From Solibacillus sp. FSL R5-0449 (lineage in GTDB: Bacteria; Bacillota; Bacilli; Bacillales_A; Planococcaceae): a stretch of DNA of 64,000 nucleotides. Both the position numbers and the translations under genes were made by a program. Below, piece by piece: positions 14,969-50,152 of the stretch. Location: assembly GCF_037975215.1 (NCBI RefSeq), contig NZ_CP150239.1:1588001-1652000 (forward strand), read 5' to 3'. Position 1 is the first letter of the stretch; each line of letters starts with the position of its first letter. The notes beneath the pieces are model-generated. The model saw nothing but the letters and a program-made list of their open reading frames with translations, was not told the origin of the DNA and did not search any database.

Positions 14969-14989
14969 TCATTTCAAGGTAATATCTAG

Positions 14990-15247
14990 GCAATGATTGG
15001 AAGTAGTAAATAGCTTGTATACTTTAAGAGAGCCAGTGGGTGGTGCAAACTGGCAGATACAACTGTTGAACTCGTCCATGAGCTACGACCTGAAGTTACA
15101 GTAGGGAAGTCGGAAGTCTCCGTTAAAAGACAGGCAAACTATTTGTCGATAAGTGGAATGTTCCAGCAATGGGCATTCAATTTAGAGTGGTACCGCGAGT
15201 ATAACCTCGTCTCTATGAATTTGTTCATAGAGGCGAGGTTTTTTATT
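14990..15247 (+). ncRNA. T-box riboswitch leader, probably leucine-specific
   Basis: The leader shows Stem I features (AGAGAGCCAGTGGGTGGTGC near 15028-15047), the loop-E GAA followed by a CTC codon (15071-15073) as the likely specifier for tRNA-Leu, and the canonical T-box TAGAGTGGTACCGCG (about 15183-15197), which pairs with the tRNA CCA end. A competing terminator follows (AACCTCG...CGAGGTT then TTTTTT, 15203-15244). Uncharged tRNA-Leu would stabilise the antiterminator and turn on leuA. The class is certain; the specifier is read by eye. Confidence 0.9.
15203..15247 (+). terminator. T-box regulatory terminator
   Basis: A 16-17-bp interrupted stem starting AACCTCG and ending CGAGGTT is followed by six T residues. 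Its 5' arm overlaps the sequence needed for the T-box antiterminator, so the two are mutually exclusive. Confidence 0.85.
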
Positions 15248-45562: not shown

Positions 45563-45593
45563 TAGCCATAACAGGTTTAGGTCTGTATGATAG

Positions 45594-45625
45594 AAACCAG
45601 AACTATCAATTGATAGTTCTGGTTT
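45594..45625. terminator. Perfect 32-base palindromic terminator
   Basis: AAACCAGAACTATCAA and its exact complement form a 16-bp stem with no spare loop bases (in practice a 4-base loop) after panF. It ends two bases before the -35 of the next promoter. Confidence 0.75.
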
Positions 45626-45627
45626 AT

Positions 45628-45656
45628 TTGACGTTAAACACTTATTATTGTAAACT
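45628..45656 (+). promoter_or_regulatory. Promoter of the rib-like cluster
   Basis: TTGACG (45628-45633), a 17-base spacer and TAAACT (45651-45656). No FMN riboswitch elements are visible between here and the start codon at 45698. Confidence 0.6.
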
Positions 45657-45658
45657 AG

Positions 45659-45673
45659 GTTACATAAAGTAAC
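45659..45673. promoter_or_regulatory. Dyad GTTAC-N5-GTAAC at the start point of the rib-like cluster
   Basis: A perfect five-base inverted repeat lies directly downstream of the -10, where a repressor would block RNA polymerase. No regulator gene is adjacent. Confidence 0.45.
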
Positions 45674-45697
45674 TTAATAAAAACTAAAGGTGATTAG

Positions 45698-46432
45698 ATG
45701 AAAAAATTAATGGCTATTTTAGAAGATAAAATTCAGCTTGTCCGTCGTGATGAACTGCAAAATATTGCAGTAGTCGGACCGGTAAAGCTACCTATAAAGC
45801 AAGAAAATCTAGAAGCAACATTCCAATGGTATTCATGGACAACTGTTGAAAAAAATCAGACAAAACAACAAGTAGTGGAATCCGTATCGTCTATGCATTT
45901 AGCATTTGGCCAGCAGTCTTCAGTACTCGTATATGGAGACTTCGCCAATCAGGAAGATGCATTGATCCGCATGCACAGCATTTGCCATACAGGTGATATT
46001 TTCGGTTCACAGCGTTGTGACTGCGGCTATCAGTTACATGAATCGATGAAAATGATTGTCGAGCACGGCTGTGGCGCTATCTTCTATTTAGCAGATCATG
46101 AGGGACGCGGTATTGGGCTGTTTTCAAAATCGCTCGCTTACTTATTGCAGGAAGAAGAATTTGATACAGTGGAAGCCAATCATGCACTTGGGTTTGAAGA
46201 TGATGTCCGTTCGTATGATGACGCAATCCGTGTACTGCAAGTATTGCGTTCAAAACCGGTAACACTTATTACAAACAACCCGAAAAAGCTTGCAGCACTG
46301 CAGGAGAGCGGGTTACTTGCGGATGGCCATATTCCATTATGGGGCGGTCTGACAGAAACGAATGAACAGTACTTGAAAACGAAAGTAGAAAAGTCTGGTC
46401 ATATCGCGATGGCTGAAAAGTTAACGGTGTAA
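45698..46432 (+). CDS. ribA: GTP cyclohydrolase II, divergent form
   Basis: A 244-residue GTP cyclohydrolase II. It opens GTP to a diaminopyrimidine phosphate, the entry to riboflavin. Zinc ligands are C96, C107 and C109 (SICHTGDIFGSQRCDCGYQL); Y130 and the EGRGIGL loop follow, then LITNNPKKL and GHIAM at the end. The active-site loop reads YLADHEGRG, one residue longer than the usual YLRQEGRG and lacking its arginine. An N-terminal extension of about 55 residues is unusual. There is no fused RibB domain. ATG 45698 follows AAAGGTG. RibD follows after 12 bases. Confidence 0.85.
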   Translation: MKKLMAILEDKIQLVRRDELQNIAVVGPVKLPIKQENLEATFQWYSWTTVEKNQTKQQVVESVSSMHLAFGQQSSVLVYGDFANQEDALIRMHSICHTGDIFGSQRCDCGYQLHESMKMIVEHGCGAIFYLADHEGRGIGLFSKSLAYLLQEEEFDTVEANHALGFEDDVRSYDDAIRVLQVLRSKPVTLITNNPKKLAALQESGLLADGHIPLWGGLTETNEQYLKTKVEKSGHIAMAEKLTV

Positions 46433-46444
46433 GGAGAATTTTAA

Positions 46445-47560
46445 ATGAAAACTGATCAGGACTATATGCAACTAGCGCTCCAACTGGCAGCAAGTGCAAG
46501 AGGCAATACAAATCCAAATCCGTTAGTCGGGGCCGTTATCGTAAAAGATGGCGTCGTCGTCGGCACAGGGCTTCACCGTAAAGCAGGGGAACCTCATGCA
46601 GAAGTACATGCGGTGAATATGGCAGGAGAGCATACGAAAGGTGCGACGATTTATGTCACATTGGAACCTTGTTCGCACTACGGCAAAACACCGCCATGTG
46701 CGAAGCTGCTAAAGGAAAGCGGGTTTAAACGCGTTGTTGTTGCAATGGAAGATCCGAACCCTGAAGTAGCAGGACGCGGAATCCGTCTGTTGCGTGAAGC
46801 GGGAATCGAAGTGGAAGTGGGAGTTCTCCAGGAGGAGGCCCAGAAACTGAACGAACGGTTTATCCATAATATGCTGACAGAACGTCCTTTTGTCGTGGCG
46901 AAGTTCGCAATGACACTTGATGGTAAAATCGCGACATATAATGGCCACTCCCAATGGATTACGGGTGAAGCAGCACGTGCGGATGTCCATGAATTGCGCC
47001 ATGAAGTGGACGGGATATTAGTCGGTGTTCAAACCGTTTTAAATGACAACCCGAAACTGACGACACGTCTAAAGGATAATCGGAAAGGTCGTAACCCGAT
47101 TCGAGTAGTGTTGGATAGTACGCTGAAAACACCGGTTGATGCAGGTATAGCGGATACGACAGAAGCTCGTACAATCATTGTCACTTCTCTTGACTCAGAT
47201 CCAGTAAAGGCACAGCAACTCGAACGTAACGATGTCGAAATTATCCGGGTGAAAAAAGATTTAACAGGCTTGAACATAGAGGATATGTTGAAAGCATTAT
47301 ATAAAAAGGGCATTACGCATCTGCTTATTGAAGGTGGCGGCAATGTGAACGCATCATTTTTACGAGGCGGCTTCATTGACCAGTATATGGTATATGTCGC
47401 TCCAAAAGTATTGGGAGGGAAAAACTCCATTACACCGTTTACCGGATCTGATGTGGAAACAATCGATTTGGCAAGCGAGCTTGAATTCGGTGAAATCACT
47501 CGCATCGGGGAAGATTTGCGTATTATAGCCTATCCAAAGAAGGCTGGTTTACATGAATAG
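46445..47560 (+). CDS. ribD: Bifunctional pyrimidine deaminase/reductase RibD
   Basis: A 371-residue two-domain enzyme: an N-terminal deaminase (H51-A-E53, C76 and C85 in EPCSHYGKTPPC bind zinc) and a C-terminal NADPH reductase (FAMTLDGKIATYNGHSQWIT, GILVGVQTVLNDNPKLT, LLIEGGGNVNASFL). It performs steps two and three of riboflavin synthesis, giving 5-amino-6-ribitylamino-uracil phosphate. All motifs are intact. ATG 46445 follows AAGGAG. It overlaps the next gene by eight bases, so the monooxygenase is translated with it. Confidence 0.93.
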   Translation: MKTDQDYMQLALQLAASARGNTNPNPLVGAVIVKDGVVVGTGLHRKAGEPHAEVHAVNMAGEHTKGATIYVTLEPCSHYGKTPPCAKLLKESGFKRVVVAMEDPNPEVAGRGIRLLREAGIEVEVGVLQEEAQKLNERFIHNMLTERPFVVAKFAMTLDGKIATYNGHSQWITGEAARADVHELRHEVDGILVGVQTVLNDNPKLTTRLKDNRKGRNPIRVVLDSTLKTPVDAGIADTTEARTIIVTSLDSDPVKAQQLERNDVEIIRVKKDLTGLNIEDMLKALYKKGITHLLIEGGGNVNASFLRGGFIDQYMVYVAPKVLGGKNSITPFTGSDVETIDLASELEFGEITRIGEDLRIIAYPKKAGLHE

Positions 47561-48629
47561 AAAAGTGGATGTATGCATTGTTGGCGGTGGTCCTGGCGGT
47601 GCACTGCTTGCCAATATATTGGCGAAAAATAATGTATCGGTTCTTTTAATTGAACGGACAAATGACTTTGCGAAGGCATTCCGCGGGGAACATTTAAATG
47701 AAGAAGGCGAGCGTATTCTTAAACAGTACGGGCTTTTCGAACGAATTGAACAGCTCGGTTTGCTGCGGATGGAAACATTGGAATATTGGATGGGCGGTGA
47801 AAAGTTTAAAACAATTGAACCGGATCCCACAGTAGGACATTTAGGAATCCATGTACCGCAAGCACATCTGCTTCAGGCAATTATCGAGCAGGCTAAAGGC
47901 TATCCGGCATTTGACTATTTATTGAATACGACGGTTAAAGAGCTTGTTCAAAATGAACATGGACAATATACAGCTGTTCGCGCTAAACAGGGTGATGCTG
48001 AGATGACAATTGAAGCACAGCTAATTATCGGTGCGGATGGGCGTTATTCGACGGTCAGAAAGCTGGCGGAATTGGATGTGACGATTCGCGATCATGGCTA
48101 TGACTTGCTTTGGGCGAGAATACCCGCACCTGAGTACTGGACGCCTTCGATAAAAATGGCCTTAGTTGACGGCATGCAAATATCCCTGTTTACGCAGGCA
48201 AAAGGATTTGTCCAAATCGGTTGGAATATCGAAAAGGGGAGCTACCCGGAATTACGCAAACAGCCGTTTATCCCATTCATTGAAAAGCTCGTAAAAGCAT
48301 TTCCCCAATTGGCGCCTGTAGTACAGGAGCATATTCGGTCATGGAAAGACTTTGTGCTGCTTGATGTATTTAGCAGTACGACCGAACAATGGGGTAAAGA
48401 AGGTGTTGCATTAATTGGGGATGCTGTTCATACAATGACCCCGACAGGTGCCTACGGATTAAACAGTTCGTTAATGGATGCCCATGTGCTGGCCCAGATG
48501 CTGCTGGAAAATGAAGAATTTGATTTTGTCAGCTGTGCAACGGCACGAAAAAAACAAATCGAAAAAATTCAGGCAATACAAATAGAAAAAGAGCAAAAGT
48601 TCCATGAAGCTTTTCTCGTATTAAGTTAG
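47553..48629 (+). CDS. FAD-dependent monooxygenase in the rib-like cluster
   Basis: A 358-residue flavoprotein of the PHBH/UbiH type. The FAD-binding GGGPGG is at residues 11-16, the DG motif is GADGRYSTVRKLA, and the second FAD motif is GDAVHTMTPTGAYGLN (about 290). Such enzymes hydroxylate aromatic or ring substrates with NAD(P)H and oxygen. It overlaps ribD by eight bases and has no place in ordinary riboflavin synthesis, so it may act on a product of the pathway. The substrate is unknown. Confidence 0.8.
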   Translation: MNRKVDVCIVGGGPGGALLANILAKNNVSVLLIERTNDFAKAFRGEHLNEEGERILKQYGLFERIEQLGLLRMETLEYWMGGEKFKTIEPDPTVGHLGIHVPQAHLLQAIIEQAKGYPAFDYLLNTTVKELVQNEHGQYTAVRAKQGDAEMTIEAQLIIGADGRYSTVRKLAELDVTIRDHGYDLLWARIPAPEYWTPSIKMALVDGMQISLFTQAKGFVQIGWNIEKGSYPELRKQPFIPFIEKLVKAFPQLAPVVQEHIRSWKDFVLLDVFSSTTEQWGKEGVALIGDAVHTMTPTGAYGLNSSLMDAHVLAQMLLENEEFDFVSCATARKKQIEKIQAIQIEKEQKFHEAFLVLS

Positions 48630-48638
48630 GTGAGATAG

Positions 48639-49211
48639 ATGAAATTTGGTTTTGATATTGATGATACGTTAATCGATTTACGTCGACATGCATTTCATTT
48701 GTATAATAAGAAATTGAACAAACAGATCAGCGAAGATGTTTTCGAAACAATCCCGACAGTCGAAATCCACGTACCGTTTGGATTAACAAATGAAGAAGGC
48801 AGCCAAATGTGGAAAGATACGATGGAAGAAATCTATTTCACAGACTGTCCTAGCTTTGAAGGGGCTAAGGAAGTTTTAAATGCCTTGGCAGAAGAAGGAC
48901 ATGAAATTTATTATATTACGTCACGTCCGAAAGGGTATTGTGAACAGACCCGAGCATGGGTAAAAGCACAGGGGTTCCCGGTTGTGGATGAGCGTTTTTC
49001 CTGCGGAATGGCAGATCATGAGAAAATCGATATTATTAAAAGTTTGGAACTTGACGTTTATGTAGATGATAAGCCCGCTGTTTTAAATACATTGGCGGGG
49101 AGCACAACGAAAGTCATTGTGAAAAATCAGTCATACAATCAGACAGTAGAATATCCGCGTCTGACAAGTTGGAATGAATTCAATAAACTGATCGGTTATG
49201 CATCGGTGTAA
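48639..49211 (+). CDS. HAD-family phosphatase, 5'(3')-deoxyribonucleotidase (NT5C)-like
   Basis: A 190-residue HAD hydrolase. The catalytic motif is F-D6-I-D8-D-T at the N-terminus; YITSRPKGY is motif II, and DVYVDDKPAVL is motif IV. The overall layout is that of the NT5C/YorS-like nucleotidases. Ten bases separate it from the monooxygenase, so it belongs to the same operon. It could supply the phosphatase step of the riboflavin route, which is usually done by unlinked HAD enzymes, or act on nucleotides. ATG 48639 follows AGGTGAG. Confidence 0.75.
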   Translation: MKFGFDIDDTLIDLRRHAFHLYNKKLNKQISEDVFETIPTVEIHVPFGLTNEEGSQMWKDTMEEIYFTDCPSFEGAKEVLNALAEEGHEIYYITSRPKGYCEQTRAWVKAQGFPVVDERFSCGMADHEKIDIIKSLELDVYVDDKPAVLNTLAGSTTKVIVKNQSYNQTVEYPRLTSWNEFNKLIGYASV

Positions 49212-49221
49212 TCGGCAGGAG

Positions 49222-49252
49222 AAATCCCCGGAGCTTTTTCGGGGATTTTTTT
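49222..49252 (+). terminator. Terminator of the rib-like cluster
   Basis: AAATCCCCG and CGGGGATTT pair around GAGCTTTTT and are followed by TTTT, ten bases after the phosphatase stop. Confidence 0.85.
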
Positions 49253-49349
49253 ATATAAAAAGTGAAAATAGTTTGAATTTTTCCTTTCAACTGATTGAAT
49301 ATGTGGTATTGTTAACAGTGTATAGACATACCGGTTGGAGGATTTTACT

Positions 49350-49943
49350 ATGATAACACAACAACATTACGAAGCAAGCATTCATTACAATGGGATTATA
49401 TTACTGTCGGCTTACTTACAACGCCAGTATGTATACCGTACAATTCAAGTACGTCTTAACGGAGCAAGTGAAGAACCACTAAATAAAGTAAAAAGTATGC
49501 TTGAACATACAGAGCTGATGCTGAATATTTTTGAGGAATCAAAAGATCTGATGGAAGGTCAGCGCAACAAACTTAAATCATTTGCGGACGAGGTAGCCCT
49601 TTTGATGCAAAATTATATTAAAGAAGATCCGGATTTTAAAGAACGTCTGGCAGTTGTCGGCTCAACACTTTACTCAGAGCAGCTGATGAATAACGGGATT
49701 ATTAAACTCGGCTATATTTTCAAACAAAATATCGGGAAAGATTTCCCGGCACGTGTTAAATTTTATGAAGAGCGTACAAAGGTAATCGACCTGATGGTAC
49801 AGCTCGTGTCAGAAGGAAAAGAAATCGAAAAAGGCATGCAGGACATTTTAAACAAATGGTATGACGGCATCGCCAACCAGAAAAAAGGCATTATGGAAGA
49901 TCTATCGAAAATCAACGAAATGCTCGATTTTAAAGCAGAATAA
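49350..49943 (+). CDS. Hypothetical all-helical protein
   Basis: A 197-residue cytoplasmic protein, nearly all alpha-helical and rich in Lys and Glu (LNKVKSMLEHTELMLNIFEE, KEIEKGMQDILNKWYDGIAN). No signal peptide, membrane helix or known motif is visible. ATG 49350 lies eight bases after GGAGG; a TTG at 49335 lies inside that site. It is monocistronic and followed by an inverted-repeat element. Function unknown. Confidence 0.6.
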   Translation: MITQQHYEASIHYNGIILLSAYLQRQYVYRTIQVRLNGASEEPLNKVKSMLEHTELMLNIFEESKDLMEGQRNKLKSFADEVALLMQNYIKEDPDFKERLAVVGSTLYSEQLMNNGIIKLGYIFKQNIGKDFPARVKFYEERTKVIDLMVQLVSEGKEIEKGMQDILNKWYDGIANQKKGIMEDLSKINEMLDFKAE

Positions 49944-49993: not shown

Positions 49994-50152
49994 AAAATTG
50001 ATTGGAATGGAGGGCGACTCCAGCGGGAATAGCGTGACGCCTAAGACTAGGAACAAAAGCTAAGAACGCCACGTCCTGTGGCAACGCTTTTGTGACCAAC
50101 GTCGTGTTGGCCTCACGCCCGCGGAAAGCGTCCCGAAATAGAAATCAATTTT
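49994..50152. repeat. Intergenic inverted-repeat element (about 160 bp)
   Basis: The ends AAAATTGATT (49994-50003) and AATCAATTTT (50143-50152) are exact complements. Inside are GGAGGGCGACTCC, GGGAATAGCGTGACGCC, and near the other end GCCTCACGCCCGC and GCGGAAAGCGTCCCG, which can pair to give a long imperfect hairpin. It is much richer in GC than its surroundings and carries no gene. I recognise it as similar to dispersed non-coding repeats of Bacillaceae genomes; copy number here cannot be judged. Confidence 0.6.

Follow-up and report, generated by a model that had tools for sequence, protein, structure and literature searches.

A conserved four-gene operon for a riboflavin precursor in Solibacillus, with a putative non-riboswitch operator and a probable second use

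We analysed a stretch of 64,000 nucleotides from Solibacillus sp. FSL R5-0449 (NZ_CP150239.1, positions 1,588,001-1,652,000, forward strand; hereafter the window, to which coordinates refer), which contains an operon encoding a guanosine triphosphate (GTP) cyclohydrolase II (GCHII, RibA type), a bifunctional RibD, a flavin adenine dinucleotide (FAD) monooxygenase and an HAD phosphatase. This four-gene operon is real and conserved, and riboflavin synthesis in this bacterium is almost certainly split between it and a distant ribE-ribB-ribH operon controlled by flavin mononucleotide (FMN) riboswitches. We propose, with a little better than even confidence, that the operon is a redox-inducible module for 5-amino-6-ribitylaminouracil (5-A-RU); besides feeding riboflavin synthesis in this bacterium, it would serve a further purpose. 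The module would convert GTP into 5-A-RU through the successive action of GCHII and RibD, after which the NT5C-type HAD enzyme would remove the phosphate.

Results

Riboflavin genes in the Solibacillus genome

The genome is a single contig of 3,582,823 bases (99.97% complete) in which PF00925 and RibD_C have one match each, both in the operon, and this sole GCHII and sole RibD rule out that the operon merely duplicates a complete rib operon. The genome has three FMN riboswitches: a tandem pair near 1.83 Mb that precedes ribE-ribB-ribH, and a single one near 1.19 Mb ahead of a gene that by eye resembles that of the transporter ribU. The ribB product has 203 amino acids and no GCHII domain. Since the only GCHII and RibD lie here and ribE-ribB-ribH lies elsewhere, the operon must feed riboflavin, on known pathways. 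An earlier annotation made from the letters of the window (the sequence-only reading) had asked for a second, riboswitch-controlled rib operon; there is one, but it carries neither ribA nor ribD. The operon itself is not an FMN-regulated riboflavin operon, as that reading had noted: a Pfam and NCBIfam scan of its genes found no ribB, ribE or ribH, and an Rfam scan of the window found no FMN riboswitch at gathering score.

The tandem riboswitches upstream of ribE occupy G000:C1:1831091-1831462. Same-strand pairs less than 350 bases apart occur in at least 15 relatives (e.g. G120, G114, G062, G049, G063), and three riboswitches stand in a row in G024 (C55:16080-16818).

We surveyed 121 genomes, the Solibacillus genome and 120 of its family (Solibacillus is placed in Caryophanaceae by NCBI); the sets behind these tallies, and behind the palindrome tallies for genera and for other genes given below, were compiled by hand. 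GCHII of the operon's type (cluster-type GCHII) is found in 89 of the 121. An unfused ribB, with no GCHII fusion, occurs in 57 genomes, 56 of which carry cluster-type GCHII, and a fused RibBA occurs in 53, of which 28 also carry it. A RibB match is absent from 11 genomes, five of them with cluster-type GCHII; RibH is absent from the same 11, as is riboflavin synthase from all 11 (three positive controls matched). Among 23 ribE-ribB loci, ribD adjoins in ten, and G038 and G086 have short remnants resembling ribD close to ribE. The operon may have taken over riboflavin synthesis stepwise, from a full rib operon coexisting with the cluster, through loss of ribD, to loss of the GCHII domain, which is the state of the Solibacillus genome; in a few lines the last step would be the loss of ribE-ribB-ribH, presumably in this order. 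One cluster (L094, in G031) consists of RibA-HAD only, RibD being gone, and the rib operon of the same genome (L123) still has RibD.

Retention in genomes without ribB, ribE and ribH

The cluster GCHII-RibD-HAD is kept in five of the 11 genomes that have no ribB, ribE or ribH (G073, G096, G111, G088 and G098). G073 belongs to the same genus, is a single contig, and has the monooxygenase and a flanking panF. The sister genomes G096 and G111, as well as G088, have the cluster without the monooxygenase, and G098 has it with the monooxygenase. G096 is also a single contig, G088 and G111 are not, and G098 is 8% contaminated, in 450 contigs, with a second GCHII-like piece, so that the count becomes four of ten when it is excluded.

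The checked catalytic residues of RibA, RibD and HAD are intact in the cluster-bearing genomes of this set. Between G096 and G111, the three genes together differ by 40 synonymous changes (510 sites) and 7 non-synonymous ones (1890 sites), a ratio of non-synonymous to synonymous rates (dN/dS) of 0.047 (binomial p 1.5e-20). The simplest reading is that their lineage lost ribB, ribE and ribH before the two split. The retention in five of 11 genomes, the purifying selection in one pair and the conserved non-riboswitch operator described below give independent support to a non-riboflavin use, and 5-A-RU probably has a second use beyond riboflavin.

A conserved palindrome upstream of RibA

Of 72 loci, 49 have the palindrome TTAC-N5-GTAA in the 250 bases that precede RibA, where shuffles predict 0.68; it is found in 11 of 15 genera, including the genomes G073, G088, G096 and G111 without ribB, ribE and ribH. 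These 72 upstream regions, which do not cover all of the 95 cluster-type GCHII matches, include the window as well as toxoflavin-like, solo and Bacillaceae copies. Before other genes of the same loci the palindrome is found in 14 of 306 cases, 12 of which are the same site viewed from the divergent gene, and it is found in none of the 23 ribE-ribB loci, which are our own selection with the riboswitch not confirmed at each. Where the monooxygenase is not linked to the cluster, the palindrome lies upstream of it in four of 13 loci.

The extended consensus reads TAtAcTaa[gc]TTAC[ag]tAAAGTAAcT; in it the palindrome stands 3 bases after a -10-like element, a position that fits a repressor site. Plain matches in the window number 3 against 1.46 expected and are uninformative alone; a chance occurrence is rejected on position and conservation, not on this count. 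As RNA, the palindrome folds no better than shuffles (z -1.53). A conserved, predicted non-riboswitch operator upstream of RibA is well supported.

The divergent neighbours that share the palindrome vary by genus (GntR/TrkA_C, GGDEF, ferritin or no family), and we rejected a common functional theme among them because they differ from genus to genus. In genus g8 (L092, L093), for instance, the intergenic region with the palindrome separates the cluster from a divergently oriented ferritin-like gene.

A candidate repressor

An HxlR-family gene lies divergent across the palindrome, with one or two sites between, in three Bacillaceae, namely Priestia aryabhattai (L188) and two Cytobacillus (L144, L146). 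The nearest solved structure to the Cytobacillus protein is YodB (5hs7, E 3.4e-27), with the N-terminal Cys-Pro aligned. The palindrome is therefore described here as a putative site of a YodB-like repressor, a link that rests on three genomes, and the Solibacillus operon may be under such a repressor too. HypR, YodB and CatR are reported to detect hypochlorous acid (HOCl), quinones and diamide through an N-terminal Cys (PMC6943732). What the proposed repressor senses we infer: control would come not from FMN but from a YodB/HxlR-type thiol switch on the palindrome beside the -10 box, expected to release under electrophile or oxidant stress.

Gene order, monooxygenase and phosphatase

The order RibA-RibD-monooxygenase-HAD is found in all 11 same-genus loci, nine of which have panF upstream; the sequence-only reading had proposed to check this order in other Planococcaceae. 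In the nearest clade (42 loci), HAD is present in all 42 and the monooxygenase lies between RibD and HAD in 33; two of these 33 genes are damaged, being truncated in G060 and interrupted by one in-frame stop in G009. A second clade of 19 family loci has HAD in 19, RibD in 18 and the monooxygenase in none. A second gene order, VOC-monooxygenase-RibA-RibD-HAD, occurs in Cytobacillus; a role of its VOC gene as catechol dioxygenase was rejected, as the matches are far under the curated cut-offs and those in the PDB are only weak. Cluster-type GCHII without adjoining RibD or HAD is seen in L077, L082, L085, L096, L187, L189 and L190, of which two are in Bacillus sinesaloumensis and one is on a Priestia megaterium plasmid. 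After the operon, a gene at 49335-49943 with no Pfam or NCBIfam match is present in nine of the 11 same-genus loci.

The monooxygenase occurs only in genomes with cluster-type GCHII (50 of 89 with it, 0 of 32 without, hence all 50 of the monooxygenase genomes). It has a PHBH-like fold, that of phenol, kynurenine and pyridinol hydroxylases, and the DG and GD motifs are conserved in 34 of 34 sequences and GxGxxG in 33, the remaining one being truncated. Its best match both by sequence and by fold is the flavin monooxygenase of Bacillus niacini (8urc, 8uiu, 8urd; 28% identity), one entry of which holds the ligand "(2,6)DHP", which we take to be 2,6-dihydroxypyridine.

HAD is present in all 61 RibA(-RibD) cluster loci of the two clades, and its catalytic residues are found in 62 of 62 sequences; no PDB chain matched it by sequence at E 0.1. 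We consider it a candidate phosphatase for the RibD product, which would be its substrate.

Operon layout and gene identities

The features are listed in Table 1. Adjacent genes are separated by a 12-base gap (RibA-RibD), an 8-base overlap (RibD-monooxygenase) and a 9-base gap (monooxygenase-HAD); the sequence-only reading had named the same families and spacing except for the last gap, given there as 10 bases. It had also placed one promoter and one terminator around the genes, from 45594 to 49252. The promoter-like pair and the downstream hairpin agree with this, but the position of the first hairpin suggests that it terminates the panF-like gene before the operon, which would place the operon start nearer 45628. 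The downstream hairpin was found by folding and was not listed by a consensus terminator scan, and the region has about as many promoter-like matches as chance predicts (16 against 15.1 expected). The two Rfam matches in the window are a T-box leader (14984-15217) and a Bacillaceae-1 small RNA (50044-50110).

Table 1. Features of the operon and its flanks, in window coordinates.
Feature	Position	Strand	Size	Basis
Hairpin, by position terminator of the upstream panF-like gene, outside the operon proper	45594..45626	+		Fold of 45565-45640, z -5.39
Promoter-like -35/-10 pair, TTGACG-17-TAAACT	45628..45656	+		Recurs in same-genus upstream sequences
Conserved putative operator TAGGTTACATAAAGTAACTTA, likely repressor site	45656..45676, core 45660-45672	+		Sole match of the site profile in the window
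GTP cyclohydrolase II (RibA type, stand-alone subfamily)	45698..46432	+	244 amino acids	Pfam/NCBIfam, catalytic residues, tree
Bifunctional RibD deaminase/reductase	46445..47560	+	371 amino acids	Pfam/NCBIfam, motif residues
Group-A FAD monooxygenase	47553..48629	+	358 amino acids	Pfam, sequence and fold matches, motifs
NT5C-type HAD phosphatase, candidate for the RibD-product phosphatase	48639..49211	+	190 amino acids	Pfam, catalytic residues
Intrinsic terminator hairpin with T run	49218..49252	+		-19.4 kcal/mol, z -3.65

The RibA protein matches PF00925 at 1.2e-42, and scores below the TIGR00505 ribA cut-off (169.5 against 205.85 bits) and above that of NF001591 (188.4 against 148). Across the sequences checked, the Cys and Tyr residues are conserved in 69 of 69 and the Arg in 68; we take the three Cys to be zinc ligands, and the Tyr and Arg to belong to the active site. 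RibD scores 409 bits with TIGR00326 eubact_ribD (cut-off 156) and has deaminase and reductase domains with their motif residues. The monooxygenase matches PF01494 at 4.5e-43, and the phosphatase matches PF06941 (NT5C) at 1.4e-15.

Relation to toxoflavin-like clusters

Three toxoflavin-like gene sets (L097, L098, L117) were noted. Those on plasmids of Halobacillus litoralis and Bacillus arachidis contain a related GCHII together with genes annotated as WD40 and SUMF1/formylglycine-enzyme, and a stretch of G043 was judged by eye to be similar. In a midpoint-rooted FastTree tree, whose sequences include no characterised toxoflavin GCHII, the three toxoflavin-like GCHIIs appear to join the cluster GCHIIs apart from RibBA (the RibBA branch has a support of 1.00, the inner grouping one of 0.66). 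The sequence-only reading had drawn a parallel with toxoflavin-type pathways. Despite the related GCHII, we do not support a toxoflavin-type product, as the partner genes are missing at the locus: no WD40 or SUMF1-type gene was found among the operon genes and their neighbours, to which the search was confined. The chemistry would thus have to differ.

Discussion

We favour a two-purpose module, which we regard as probable. It would be the sole 5-A-RU source for riboflavin in the Solibacillus genome, since the FMN-riboswitch operon is ribE-ribB-ribH only, and 5-A-RU, or a monooxygenase product made from it, would have a use that does not depend on riboflavin and for which relatives without ribB, ribE and ribH retain the module. 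We infer both the substrate of the monooxygenase and the second product. The diversion of a riboflavin precursor suggested by the sequence-only reading thus survives in part: with the sole ribA and ribD here, riboflavin needs the operon, but the monooxygenase in orthologous loci, the retention without ribB, ribE and ribH and the non-riboswitch operator still point to diversion. More speculatively, and on the whole unlikely in our view, 5-A-RU, a strongly nucleophilic ortho-diamine, might be made on a thiol-switch cue to trap quinones, dicarbonyls and other electrophiles, or serve the monooxygenase as starting material for a pyrimidine or flavin-like product that is new and redox-active; on this view riboflavin synthesis would later have been hung onto this stress module, losing its own ribA and ribD.

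Several observations weigh against a two-purpose module. In the set of 11 that lack ribB, ribE and ribH, the other six have no cluster GCHII either. As the genomes are kin to each other, neither the counts nor the p values can be treated as independent. Where full-length RibD occurs, a genome nearly always has just one copy (among the matches listed, G020 and G043 alone have two), thus the cluster RibD and the rib-operon RibD swap as riboflavin genes would. For the Solibacillus genome, riboflavin synthesis could by itself account for GCHII, RibD and HAD. The palindrome is missing in 23 of the 72 loci, including seven near relatives (G053, G009, G098, G029, G046, G010, G060) as well as the solo GCHII copies and the three toxoflavin-like ones; in Cytobacillus, which accounts for two of the 23, it precedes the first gene of the operon instead. 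It is also missing before nine of the 13 unlinked monooxygenase genes, and 39 of the 89 cluster genomes have no such monooxygenase.

A plainer explanation, possible but doubtful in our judgement, is that riboflavin synthesis is merely dispersed: its upper pathway moved to another promoter so that flavin supply rises with the demand of flavoenzymes, the monooxygenase included, and the copies without ribB, ribE and ribH are relics. The sole GCHII and RibD of the Solibacillus genome, cluster GCHII in nearly all genomes with unfused ribB, RibD in one locus or the other, and the use of FAD by the monooxygenase family are all consistent with it. The sequence-only reading had held that the cluster would be of this simple kind if no other ribA or ribD existed and the monooxygenase were absent from orthologous loci; the operon genes are indeed the only ones, but the monooxygenase is present in those loci. 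Relics are also difficult to reconcile with five of 11 genomes keeping the cluster, and with a dN/dS of about 0.05 between two of them and intact checked catalytic residues of RibA, RibD and HAD.

An improbable alternative is that the monooxygenase detoxifies phenolic, quinone-like or drug compounds within a redox regulon, the rib genes merely supplying FAD. Its fold and the adjoining HxlR/YodB-type and VOC (glyoxalase/dioxygenase superfamily) genes in Cytobacillus would suit this role, whereas the 39 cluster genomes without it include three of the five that kept the cluster without ribB, ribE and ribH, and the cluster offers those five no route to FAD. Less probable still, to the point of being hardly credible, is a toxoflavin- or pseudoiodinine-like azapteridine pathway: known clusters for such compounds draw on GCHII and RibD (PMC9911603) and the tree groups the cluster GCHII with the toxoflavin-like plasmid copies, but the WD40 and SUMF1/formylglycine-enzyme-type genes of the annotated clusters are absent in and beside the operon.

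If the two-purpose module is correct, the entry reactions of an essential vitamin pathway are under an apparent electrophile-sensing repressor instead of a vitamin-sensing riboswitch, and the module kept after loss of the vitamin pathway points to a further use of 5-A-RU, which is also reported to feed F0/F420 and mucosal-associated invariant T (MAIT)-cell ligands (PMC12240317). F0 was considered as a candidate for the second product. The operon also contains a linked candidate enzyme for the phosphatase step, where earlier reports mostly name non-specific HADs, with a histidine phosphatase in Aquifex (PMC12051542), and it supplies a defined monooxygenase. In the literature searched, with most subscription journals outside its scope, we found no earlier publication on such an operon or on such rib targets of YodB/CatR.

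Comparison with known systems

FMN-controlled ribDEBA operons are described as common in most Firmicutes lineages (PMC3766115), and two partly interchangeable riboflavin modules have been proposed for Sinorhizobium (PMC9478397). With the riboflavin upper branch (ribA, ribD and an HAD phosphatase), the operon shares the same predicted reactions from GTP to 5-A-RU and the checked catalytic residues, but it differs in having no FMN riboswitch, a GCHII of a separate subfamily and an NT5C-type phosphatase inside the operon, and in being kept without ribB, ribE and ribH in some genomes. With toxoflavin and pseudoiodinine clusters, in the latter of which GCHII and RibD are reported to feed such compounds, it shares an apparently related GCHII and a RibD outside the riboflavin operon, whereas its locus has HAD and the FAD monooxygenase in place of WD40 and SUMF1-type genes. 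The monooxygenase stands in another gene setting than its Bacillus niacini counterpart, to which its identity is low. As for the regulons of YodB and CatR (HxlR, MarR/DUF24), the likeness consists of a YodB-like protein with an N-terminal Cys across the palindrome in three Bacillaceae genomes, an assignment made by gene adjacency and not by comparison with published YodB/CatR sites. While catDE is controlled by CatR and YodB (PMC6212828), the putative targets here are riboflavin-precursor enzymes.

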